A DNA stretch of 60,925 bases. It comes from a virus. Below are positions 56,866 through 60,691 of the stretch, piece by piece. Location of the stretch: the IMG/VR virus record IMGVR_UViG_3300030419_007265, positions 1-60,925 of that record; one strand, given 5' to 3'. Each line of letters starts with the position of its first letter. Positions within the stretch are counted from its first letter, which is position 1. The notes under the pieces are model-generated. The model ran no database searches. It was not told the DNA's origin and saw only the letters and a program-made list of their open reading frames with translations. Position numbers and translations under genes: made by a program.

Positions 56866-56899
56866 TAGAAAAAAAAATGAAAAAAAGTGAAAATAATGC

Positions 56900-56927
56900 T
56901 TGCGTTTTTTGAGATCTGTGATATACT
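56900..56927 (+). promoter_or_regulatory. Array promoter 1
   Basis: TTGCGT, 16 nt, TATACT with TGTGA just before it (extended -10). 10 nt to the ATG at 56938. A-tract upstream. Confidence 0.8.
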
Positions 56928-56937
56928 GTTTTGCGTT

Positions 56938-57108
56938 ATGAGGGAAACCTTGAAAGAAAACAAAAAGTTGGTCTGCCAAGAGTGTGGCAGAGAGGACGGA
57001 GCCAAGAGCGATTGGGAAGGCTTCATCAGCGTGTCGGAGTGGGGCAATGAGCATGACTTCGGAACAATCTGCGACGAGTGCCAAGAGGATCAAATCGACA
57101 GCCTCTAA
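56938..57108 (+). CDS. Small MRE zinc-ribbon-like protein
   Basis: 56 residues from ATG 56938 (MRETLKENKKLVCQECGRED), the start fixed by the promoter geometry; a longer in-frame ATG at 56887 lies within the promoter. CQEC...CDEC (C-x2-C twice) suggests a zinc ribbon. First gene of the right-hand array. Confidence 0.75.
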   Translation: MRETLKENKKLVCQECGREDGAKSDWEGFISVSEWGNEHDFGTICDECQEDQIDSL

Positions 57109-57136
57109 AAAAAATAAAAAAAGTTGAAATAAACTG

Positions 57137-57164
57137 TTGACTTTCAAAAAAATTGTGATATACT
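57137..57164 (+). promoter_or_regulatory. Array promoter 2
   Basis: TTGACT, 16 nt, TATACT (TGTGA before it), 10 nt to ATG 57175. Confidence 0.85.
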
Positions 57165-57174
57165 GACTTCCGTT

Positions 57175-57456
57175 ATGAGAGATAAGAAAACATTCCTAAA
57201 CGCCACCTTCAAAGTGGAGAAGAACCCAACCTACACCGGCAATCACTACATGGCCCGTGTCCACCGAGTGTTAAACAACACTTACCCGCTTGGCACAACC
57301 GAGCAGGAGATGATTGACCAGTACCACAACAGCGTGGTGTTGGAGAAAGACATCGACGGAAACAAGGTGCTGGCTGGCGACATTCACCGCGTGGTTGAAG
57401 TATCCTTTTATGAGGATTCGATTGCCGACAATGACTTGAGAATCACACACGATTAA
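57175..57456 (+). CDS. Small MRD protein
   Basis: 93 residues, MRDKKTFLNATFKVEKNPTY... no domain recognised; alpha/beta with a VVLEKDIDGNKVLAGDIHRV strand pair. Starts right under promoter 2, more GC-rich than the virion genes. Confidence 0.7.
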   Translation: MRDKKTFLNATFKVEKNPTYTGNHYMARVHRVLNNTYPLGTTEQEMIDQYHNSVVLEKDIDGNKVLAGDIHRVVEVSFYEDSIADNDLRITHD

Positions 57457-57469
57457 TTAAAATTTTCTG

Positions 57470-57498
57470 TTGACTTTAACATCTGAATAGATAATAAT
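57470..57498 (+). promoter_or_regulatory. Array promoter 3
   Basis: TTGACT, 17 nt, AATAAT, 10 nt to ATG 57509. Confidence 0.65.
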
Positions 57499-57508
57499 TT
57501 TTCCAGTT

Positions 57509-57688
57509 ATGACATATTGCACACAGACACAAGCTTACAGATTCCACAGTTTAACTGATAACACAGACAGATATATAAAAGGATCAAACAACTTTCCATA
57601 TGGCGCACCTGCCCCAATCGAAGGGGATGAAATCCCCTTCGAATGGGATGACAAAAAAGATGTTGACGCCGACAACAAAACCAATTAA
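57509..57688 (+). CDS. Small hypothetical protein (below ORF cut-off)
   Basis: 59 residues, MTYCTQTQAYRFHSLTDNTD...DDKKDVDADNKTN. Placed exactly at promoter 3's geometry. Acidic tail; no domain known. Confidence 0.65.
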   Translation: MTYCTQTQAYRFHSLTDNTDRYIKGSNNFPYGAPAPIEGDEIPFEWDDKKDVDADNKTN

Positions 57689-57701
57689 GATTTTTGAAGT
57701 G

Positions 57702-57995
57702 ATGAGAGATACAAACACAAACAACAACGGGGCCTTTGAGCCACACCAACGCAATCTTGGAGAAGAAGAATCCAAGCAGGACAACAGCACGCGCAGCGAA
57801 TCATTCGAAGGGATGGGCAGCCTGAGTGCTGAAGATATGCACGGCCTGAAAGATGCTATCGACAAAGGGTACAAACACTTTGCTCGGCAGACACACAACA
57901 CCAAAGGCCAGAAGGTTGACCGTCGGCATATGCTCAGCCCAGCCGACCAAGCCAACTTCAGCTACGGCAAGAAGGATGAAAGGGGGGACGCATGA
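57702..57995 (+). CDS. Small MRD protein
   Basis: 97 residues from ATG 57702 (MRDTNTNNNGAFEPHQRNLG); the longer frame from 57600 overlaps 57509-57688 and is rejected. Shares the ATGAGAGAT start although no promoter lies before it, so the conserved start is not just a promoter by-product. Polar, mostly disordered; SLSAEDMHGLKDAIDKGYKH helix. Confidence 0.7.
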   Translation: MRDTNTNNNGAFEPHQRNLGEEESKQDNSTRSESFEGMGSLSAEDMHGLKDAIDKGYKHFARQTHNTKGQKVDRRHMLSPADQANFSYGKKDERGDA

Positions 57996-58402
57996 GCCGA
58001 GATCGAATTGATGTGAAGCCCGATCTGAAAGCAGCAGATCAAATAATAAGAAAACATCTTCGACGACTCGACCCACCCCGCGAAGAAAAAAAAGTTGAAA
58101 AAAAGTTGCGAAAGGGGTTGACCTTGAGAAGATTACTTGGTAAGATATTTTCACCGGTTCGAAAGGGCCACAATAAAAATAAAGTTATGATGACCACAGA
58201 AGAAATACTAAAGCAGATCGAGAGCGTACCACGCCACCAGATCACCTACACTCGGCAGGATGGCCGCACCAACGAATACACGGTAGCCATCACCGAGCGT
58301 CACGCCGACCACATTATCGGCTACAAGTTCCAGAACGGCGAAAGCTGCGGAATACGTCGATTCAACATCGACCAAATAGGCATCCTCGAGCCGGTCACTT
58401 GA
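57992..58402 (+). CDS. Small protein with WYL-like C-terminal part
   Basis: 136 residues; ATG overlaps the previous stop (ATGA). Basic N-terminal half, then QITYTRQDGRTNEYTVAITE...HIIGYKFQNGESCGIRRFNI-DQIGIL, whose strand pattern and 'hYKF...RFxIDxI' end recall WYL domains that sense nucleic acid ligands. A second promoter (TTGACC at 58118, 17 nt, TAAGAT) and an internal ATG at 58187 (MMTTEEILKQIESV) would give the C-terminal part alone. Confidence 0.6.
   Translation: MSRDRIDVKPDLKAADQIIRKHLRRLDPPREEKKVEKKLRKGLTLRRLLGKIFSPVRKGHNKNKVMMTTEEILKQIESVPRHQITYTRQDGRTNEYTVAITERHADHIIGYKFQNGESCGIRRFNIDQIGILEPVT
58118..58146 (+). promoter_or_regulatory. Internal promoter before the WYL-like part
   Basis: TTGACC, 17 nt, TAAGAT; next ATG (58187) is 40 nt downstream, unlike the tight spacing of the other array promoters. 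It could also feed the RNA region beyond. Confidence 0.5.
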
Positions 58403-58427
58403 CCGGCCCGAGTTTGAATGGAATCTT

Positions 58428-58450
58428 TGGCGGTGGTCGCCAGATTTTTT
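58428..58450 (+). terminator. Weak terminator after the WYL-like gene
   Basis: TGGCG-GTGGT-CGCCA followed by ATTTTTT. A further hairpin overlapping the stop codon (CCGGTCA-CT-TGACCGG, 58391-58406) precedes it. Confidence 0.55.
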
Positions 58451-59640: not shown

Positions 59641-59646
59641 TTTAAT

Positions 59647-59697
59647 GCTTGACACCTAACGGCCGGCGGCCTGCCCGGCCGGCGTTAGAATGCAAGC
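59647..59697. repeat. GC-rich hairpin repeat, copy 2
   Basis: GCTTG-ACA-CTAACG ... CGTTAG-AAT-GCAAGC with a GCCGGC/GGCCGG inner arm. Same plan as copies 1 and 3 but changed bases are partly compensated, suggesting that the fold is under selection. Confidence 0.8.
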
Positions 59698-59739
59698 GAA
59701 ATGCGAAGAAATAAAAATAAAAAAAAAGATATTTTAGCG

Positions 59740-59767
59740 TTGACTTTTTCTGAGTTTGTGGTACACT
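59740..59767 (+). promoter_or_regulatory. Array promoter 6
   Basis: TTGACT, 16 nt, TACACT with TGTGG before it, 9 nt to ATG 59777. Confidence 0.8.
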
Positions 59768-59776
59768 GTTTTCGTT

Positions 59777-59977
59777 ATGAGAGATAATATTAGTTGTGAA
59801 GAGGTTTTTGAGTTGGACGCGGCCGCACGTGCGGAGTTTCATGCGGTGTGCGATGAGTGGAATGATGAGGCTGTCCGTGCGCAGGACGCCGAGATGGTCA
59901 AGGCCGAGGAGGAGGAGGAGGAGCTGTGCTGGTGCAAGTTCTTTGAGTCGTGCCCCACTTGCTTCGGCAAGAAGTAA
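59777..59977 (+). CDS. Small MRD acidic/Cys protein
   Basis: 66 residues from ATG 59777 (MRDNISCEEVFELDAAARAE), start set by promoter spacing rather than the upstream TTG. Acidic run (KAEEEEEELCW) and CWCKF...CPTC cysteines at the C-terminus. N-terminus parallels 59114-59269. Confidence 0.75.
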   Translation: MRDNISCEEVFELDAAARAEFHAVCDEWNDEAVRAQDAEMVKAEEEEEELCWCKFFESCPTCFGKK

Positions 59978-59990
59978 GACCTAAAAGGCT

Positions 59991-60038
59991 TGACATCTAA
60001 CGGGCCGCGGCCCCCCGCCGAGGCGTTAGAGTCAAGTA
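59991..60038. repeat. GC-rich hairpin repeat, copy 3
   Basis: CTTGAC-A-TCTAACG ... CGTTAGA-GTCAAG around a GC-only loop; stems identical to copy 1 with the same extrahelical A, loop different. Confidence 0.85.
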
Positions 60039-60079
60039 AAAAATAAAAAAAAGTTTTTTTATTTTTTTTAAAAAATGTC

Positions 60080-60107
60080 TTGTATTATTCGGAGAGTCTG
60101 GTAAAAT
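60080..60107 (+). promoter_or_regulatory. Array promoter 7
   Basis: TTGTAT, 16 nt, TAAAAT with TCTGG before it, 10 nt to ATG 60118. Confidence 0.7.
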
Positions 60108-60117
60108 GATTTCTGTT

Positions 60118-60240
60118 ATGAGGGATAAGAAACAAGAAGTCGAGACGATTACCTTGAATGGGCGCGTCTACGTTGTGAACAATGATCCGAAGCACCAACG
60201 CCGCCAACGGGCTGGCTACTATGGGAGGAACCCGAAATGA
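60118..60240 (+). CDS. Small MRD basic protein (below ORF cut-off)
   Basis: 40 residues, MRDKKQEVETITLNGRVYVV...AGYYGRNPK. Stop overlaps the next ATG (ATGA). Confidence 0.7.
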   Translation: MRDKKQEVETITLNGRVYVVNNDPKHQRRQRAGYYGRNPK

Positions 60241-60455
60241 GTAGTCCGTTTGATGGAATCGATTGGGATCACTACATGGCCACCTTCCCAAAGGCCACCG
60301 CACCTGCGCCAAAAAAAGTTGATCCGCTATTAAAGAAGGCAATCGCTCGAGCTTCTATGTTGCTTTTCTTGAATGAACTGAAGCCGACCAAGAGCGCAAA
60401 AAAATTGGCTGAACTGGAAAAAAGTGCTTTACTTGTAAAAAAATTTGTGAAATAA
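60237..60455 (+). CDS. Small hypothetical protein
   Basis: 72 residues, MSSPFDGIDWDHYMATFPKA..., helical Lys-rich C-terminus. Coupled to the preceding gene. Confidence 0.65.
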   Translation: MSSPFDGIDWDHYMATFPKATAPAPKKVDPLLKKAIARASMLLFLNELKPTKSAKKLAELEKSALLVKKFVK

Positions 60456-60456
60456 T
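60429..60456 (+). promoter_or_regulatory. Array promoter 8
   Basis: TTACTT, 16 nt, AATAAT, 10 nt to ATG 60467; overlaps the end of the previous gene. Confidence 0.6.
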
Positions 60457-60466
60457 CTTTTCTGTT

Positions 60467-60691
60467 ATGAGGACATATACATTGTATTGGAAGGACGAAG
60501 ACACCAACAGGGTGCGCAGCGAAGAATTCTCCAACAAGACCGGTTGGGATCACTCCGCGATGAACGCGGCACTGGAGATGGCCGAAGAGGCCAACGACAA
60601 TGGGTTTCCGTGGCTGCTGGAAGAGGACGGTTGCCAAGTCGCCCACGGCAACAACGGCGACCTGCTCGGAGTCTATCGCTACCAAGGATAA
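60467..60691 (+). CDS. Small hypothetical protein
   Basis: 74 residues, MRTYTLYWKDEDTNRVRSEE..., alpha/beta (HSAMNAALEMAEEANDNGFP, then AHGNNGDLLGVYRYQG). ATGAGGA start similar to the MRD genes. Confidence 0.65.
   Translation: MRTYTLYWKDEDTNRVRSEEFSNKTGWDHSAMNAALEMAEEANDNGFPWLLEEDGCQVAHGNNGDLLGVYRYQG

Follow-up and report, generated by a model that had tools for sequence, protein, structure and literature searches.

An extended codon–anticodon interaction in translation initiation was reportedly described by Esposito et al. in 2003 (cited in PMC9841429), from single-gene tests. In bacterial 'TA-led' leaderless genes, the −10 box lies immediately upstream of the start codon (PMC3160421; for Deinococcus, PMC12340547). 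Among phages, the middle and late mRNAs of Thermus phage phiYS40 are leaderless (reviewed in PMC3594737), and predicted leaderless SigA promoters, divergently placed, are found in mycobacteriophage Corndog and other Cluster O phages (PMC4351075). Here, we describe a composite start module from a group of uncultivated aquatic phages with dozens of small genes, and weigh the ways in which its conservation might be explained.

The window (the whole stretch of DNA analysed, an IMG/VR virus record of 60,925 bases) carries a siphovirus-like structural block on its minus strand, encoding terminase, tape measure and tail-fibre-J-like proteins, and, on its plus strand, an array of small open reading frames (ORFs) that runs from 56,880 until the contig ends. 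A scan with free spacing finds nine promoter modules in this array, all on the plus strand. The original prediction had counted eight sigma70-type promoters; all eight are recovered, and a ninth (57663-57704) had been overlooked. Module 1 (56900..56940) consists of a −35 element TTGCGT at 56900-56905, a 16-nt spacer, the −10 element TATACT at 56922-56927 and, after 10 nt, the ATG at 56938 of a 56-aa ORF (56938-57108) starting with MRETL. In module 2 (57137..57177), TTGACT at 57137, a 16-nt spacer and TATACT at 57159-57164 precede GTT-ATG at 57175; the 93-aa product (57175-57456) has relatives in 12 records with the same start module. Module 3 (57470..57511; TTGACT at 57470, 17-nt spacer, AATAAT at 57493-57498, GTT-ATG at 57509) leads an ORF that begins with MTYC and is without the AGR codon discussed below (57509-57688), and the overlooked module 4 (57663..57704; TTGACG at 57663, 17-nt spacer, TAAGAT at 57686-57691, GTG-ATG at 57702) leads the ORF 57702-57995, starting with MRDTN. 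Further downstream are module 5 (59076..59116; TTGCAA at 59076, 16-nt spacer, TATACT at 59098-59103, GTT-ATG at 59114, ORF 59114-59269) and module 6 (59417..59457; TTGCTT at 59417, 16-nt spacer, TATACT at 59439-59444, GTT-ATG at 59455, ORF 59455-59640). Module 7 (59740..59779; TTGACT at 59740, 16-nt spacer, TACACT at 59762-59767, ORF 59777-59977) places its ATG only 9 nt from the −10, with GTT still adjoining the ATG. The array ends with module 8 (60080..60120; TTGTAT at 60080, 16-nt spacer, TAAAAT at 60102-60107, GTT-ATG at 60118, ORF 60118-60240) and module 9 (60428..60469; TTTACT at 60428, 17-nt spacer, AATAAT at 60451-60456, GTT-ATG at 60467, ORF 60467-60691). The distance of 9-10 nt predicted between the −10 and the ATG holds, being 10 nt throughout the window except at ATG 59777, and the A-tracts proposed upstream of the −35 are real, as the 22 nt upstream are 73% A+T vs 51% further upstream. 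One detail is slightly off: the spacer had been given as 16 nt, once 17, and is 16 nt at six sites and 17 nt at three. The GTT before the ATG, which had been called fixed, is kept in module 3, and in module 7 even with the 9-nt offset; the overlooked site, module 4, has GTG.

Several other elements are interspersed with these modules. Upstream of module 5 lies an intrinsic terminator (58955..58980, plus strand), and just before the two, inside the array, is a match to manA RNA (RF01745, 56.3 bits; 58734-58913, plus strand), a riboswitch candidate known from marine metagenomes and cyanophages. A hairpin of the form CTAACG-N21-CGTTAG (58993..59025), with outer arms TTGACAT/GTCAA, is also found upstream of module 5, and 33-nt hairpins of this type directly follow the stop codons of the ORFs 59455-59640 (hairpin at 59656..59688, upstream of module 7) and 59777-59977 (59997..60029, upstream of module 8). 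Hairpins of the same fixed length, with outer arms TTGACAT/ATGTCAA, recur in two related records (9 copies in G006, 7 in G009), frequently located immediately behind a stop codon, with some 85-99 nt separating them from the next GTT-ATG. Many copies have R-like boxes, but the integron attC pattern (RYYYAAC...GTTRRRY boxes with L boxes) is not met, and attC identity was rejected on length (a span of 37 nt vs at least about 55 nt). It is possible that these hairpins are insulators or terminators.

The module is not confined to the window. Pattern scanning and whole-record reading find it in a further 17 viral records, which are 18-170 kb in size and have 2-15 promoter-led starts each, mostly within one or a few regions. 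Because the first pattern had the spacing built in, we ran tests that are free of this bias. When sites in the 18 records are selected on −35 and −10 alone, scored with E. coli-type matrices, an ATG lies at offset 10 in 134 cases (6 in a shuffled control), while the other offsets average 15.7 (sd 6.8), resulting in a spike at offset 10 with z of about 17. Conversely, selection on the start context alone (GTTATGAGRGA) finds the promoter at offset 10 in 71 of the 81 promoter-bearing non-redundant sites. When the entire viral collection is scanned, the pattern with offset 10 has 44 matches, which cluster in related contigs, vs 9 scattered single matches for an offset-13 control. Two contigs from bacterial metagenome-assembled genomes (MAGs) that had no part in building the set, L079 and L115, both repeat the module, with six more in L079 alone. 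Most matches to the module in the genome collection were dismissed as chance. Absence of conserved spacing in relatives had been named as an outcome that would refute the original prediction; the spacing is conserved, and the claim survives this check. As the set contains near-duplicate records (G001/G015 and G003/G010), the module counts are not fully independent.

Aligned over non-redundant sites, the module reads, in order, A-tracts, a −35 (TTGAC), 16-17 nt, an extended −10 (TGnTATACT), 10 nt and the ATG; the 10 nt comprise seven T-rich bases followed by GTT, and the ATG is followed by AGR and GAW. AAA peaks near −8, −18 and −28 from the −35 are one helical turn apart. Thus, the arrangement meets what is expected of a sigma70 promoter with an UP element (−35, 16-18 nt spacer, (TGn)TATAAT and phased A-tracts upstream) as well as of TA-led leaderless genes (a TANNNT −10 box some 6-12 nt ahead of the start codon). 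In the information profile, the −35, the −10, GTT and ATGAGRGA stand out as peaks, and the spacer is almost empty. This bears on whether a promoter-start cassette has merely been duplicated or recombined recently, without selection on spacing. Small genes are indeed shuffled among the records, with unrelated protein bodies exchanging N-terminal segments. However, spacer and discriminator are nearly unconserved while the signals keep their positions, which argues for selection on the repeats and against recent copying. Furthermore, about 30 protein families carry the module (27 of them with GTT), and GTT-ATG is kept in variants with 16- or 17-nt spacers and 9- or 11-nt offsets. Recent duplication is largely refuted by the information profile, and we consider it quite improbable. 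A second promoter subclass, seen in G005, G012-G016, L147 and L151, mostly has a 17-nt spacer, often with CCC in it, and drives larger genes (rIIA-like, AAA+ ATPase and gp88-like); it keeps GTT-ATG, and AGRGA is absent.

In standard sigma70 geometry, transcription starts 7-8 nt after the −10. In the module, this falls on or beside the G of GTT, resulting in a predicted leader of 3-4 nt. A Shine-Dalgarno (SD) sequence is absent from 99% of the 146 promoter-led genes; among the other long genes of these records, SD use is merely weak (10% strong vs 3% in a control). Leaderless mRNAs, as originally proposed, are thus right in kind, although near-leaderless, with a GUU leader, is the proper term. 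Near-leaderless translation remains an inference without mapped 5′ ends. Alternatively, the mRNAs could be longer and leadered, or translation could begin at in-frame starts further upstream, with these promoters being minor. An in-frame ATG, GTG or TTG does occur somewhere upstream in 70 of the 146 ORFs, but only 8 of the 146 have an SD-led alternative start, nothing but the promoter lies in the upstream regions, and the alignments of protein families begin at the MRD start. We regard this alternative as very improbable.

The start context itself is analysed in 101 strong, non-redundant sites, chosen on promoter score with the ATG at offset 10. GTT directly precedes the ATG in 99 of these. 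It also adjoins the ATG in 11 of 19 sites with offset 9 and 5 of 16 with offset 11, and at offset 11 it is never found at the place fixed relative to the −10. As GTT moves with the ATG, it belongs to the RNA start and not to the promoter. Conservation continues into the coding sequence, where most products start with MRD or MRE, as might be expected if the N-terminal peptide were needed and selected at the protein level. However, the codon choice is fixed: all 84 genes with Arg at codon 2 encode it by AGR (31% of internal Arg in the same genes), Asp3 is GAT in 47 of 55 (48% internally) and Glu3 is GAA in 22 of 23 (47% internally). At family level, 18 protein families have AGR at codon 2 and none has CGN. 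In addition, linkers of differing length separate MRD from the homologous body. It is therefore the nucleotides that are held rather than the peptide, and selection on the peptide can be given almost no credence. GTT and ATGAGRGAW probably form one RNA-level start signal, which the original prediction had missed. A short N-terminal module, MRDxIxCEEVFE, is common to small proteins whose C-terminal bodies are unrelated, as though genes had exchanged their N-termini; ORFs of this type in the window are 59114-59269 and 59777-59977.

The predicted mRNA start, GUUAUGAG, is perfectly complementary to bases 32-39 of the initiator tRNA (CUCAUAAC), which comprise the anticodon loop and base 39. All eight bases, GTTATGAG, are matched in 74 of the 101 strong sites vs 16 of 478 other genes. 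The match ends at +6, where the tRNA stem begins, and the C that would be needed there is present in 9%. Among the tRNA-Met genes read, initiator tRNAs of Pseudomonadota and Verrucomicrobiota carry CTCATAAC, elongator-like genes of Verrucomicrobiota differ at base 39, and the stem of the Verrucomicrobiota initiator tRNA differs (AGG...CCT). Complementarity of AUG-flanking bases to the initiator-tRNA loop, which defines an extended codon–anticodon interaction, is thus met with tRNAs from two phyla. On the strength of this complementarity we propose, as an inference from sequence, that extended codon–anticodon pairing serves as the start signal and probably strengthens initiation. An accidental match of the five flanking consensus bases has a chance of about 1 in 1000, so the pairing is suggestive and not proof. 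The G at −3 may simply be the initiating purine, the A-rich codons after the ATG may have other reasons, and tRNA pairing does not account for the conservation of RGAW behind AUGAG.

This last point leaves space for a DNA-level reading, in which GTT-ATGAGRGAW is a DNA element addressed by a phage regulator, such as an operator or a signal in the initial transcribed region, and the near-leaderless placement is a side effect. Conservation does reach +9, past the tRNA match, and nearly all cluster promoters share the element, but GTT travels with the ATG instead of the −10, the second promoter subclass retains GTT-ATG without AGRGA, and the motif is not palindromic. A DNA-binding factor that reads the same bases is not excluded, though we hold the DNA-level reading to be unlikely.

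The explanation we favour, with fair though not full confidence, is that each gene carries a composite start module yielding a near-leaderless mRNA whose initiation is aided by extended codon–anticodon pairing. Host-type sigma70 RNA polymerase would read the phased A-tracts (as UP element), the −35, the 16-17 nt spacer and the extended −10, and would start transcription at the G of GTT. The resulting mRNA would begin 5′-GUU-AUG-AGR-GAW, without a ribosome-binding leader, and ribosomes would initiate on it without SD pairing, initiation being strengthened by extended codon–anticodon pairing and an unstructured 5′ end; the first 45 nt are predicted to fold weakly (−3.1 vs −9.0 kcal/mol internally). 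The promoter-led genes are probably early, which is inferred only from gene size and position. Counting against the favoured explanation, leaderless translation in some bacteria reportedly declines when the AUG is set apart from the 5′ end (reviewed in PMC9031893). More tentative, and in our view somewhat less likely than its negation, is the wider proposal of a phage regulon in which a 5′-end GUUAUGAG is the sole ribosome-recruitment code, replacing SD in dozens of unrelated genes.

The hosts of these phages could not be assigned. No related DNA was found in cultured phages, and one array protein searched against these gave no match. Cyanophage S-EIV1, Microcystis phage MaeS and the marine single-cell (SAG) virus AG-345-A17 have single genes in common with the group and lack the module. 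A porin-like gene gave no usable match in 388 Verrucomicrobiota or 398 Pseudomonadota genomes. In the two MAGs holding module-bearing contigs, no use of the motif was seen outside the phage contig; in about 400 kb of the Verrucomicrobia MAG there was no comparable offset-10 spike, in a small sample of 47 promoter-like sites. The GC content of this MAG (61%) differs from that of the phages, and its binning therefore points only weakly to a host. In 12 relative records, the early regions contain a recurrent tRNA-Cys(gca) gene close to the promoter clusters (e.g. L037 19135-19208 and L072 15079-15152), and small proteins of these clusters are often Cys-rich. A tRNA-Arg(tct), reading AGA, is found in two records.

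If the favoured explanation is true, these phages would be a natural multi-gene experiment on how bacterial ribosomes choose the start codon of a leaderless message. What the pairs flanking the initiator-tRNA anticodon contribute is an old, mostly single-gene question, for which about 100 non-redundant sites give a testable consensus. The module also offers a simple motif by which small genes that have been missed in uncultivated viruses could be found. We found no report in the open-access literature of a regulon combining leaderless phage mRNAs, an adjacent −10 and extended pairing, and each described system matches only in part. As in phiYS40, phage genes would be expressed from mRNAs without a ribosome-binding leader, but host phylum and temporal class differ, and phiYS40 is thought to shift IF2/IF3 levels; neither a fixed GUU leader nor a tRNA-complementary start context is reported for it in the review (PMC3594737). 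With TA-led genes, the module shares a −10 box near the start codon in place of SD. The Deinococcus −10 is 6-7 nt from the start codon and often has no −35 (PMC12340547), whereas the phage module has exactly 10 nt, a −35, UP-like A-tracts and an invariant GTT-ATG. Corndog has SigA promoters whose predicted +1 coincides with the start codon, but there are three such promoters per genome, without a repeated start context, and transcription would begin with the first start-codon base itself. Finally, as in the extended codon–anticodon interaction, in which mRNA bases flanking the AUG pair with the initiator-tRNA anticodon loop and aid SD-less initiation, pairing would reach beyond the start codon; unlike in the single-gene tests, the full eight-base complement would here serve as a regulon-wide start signal.
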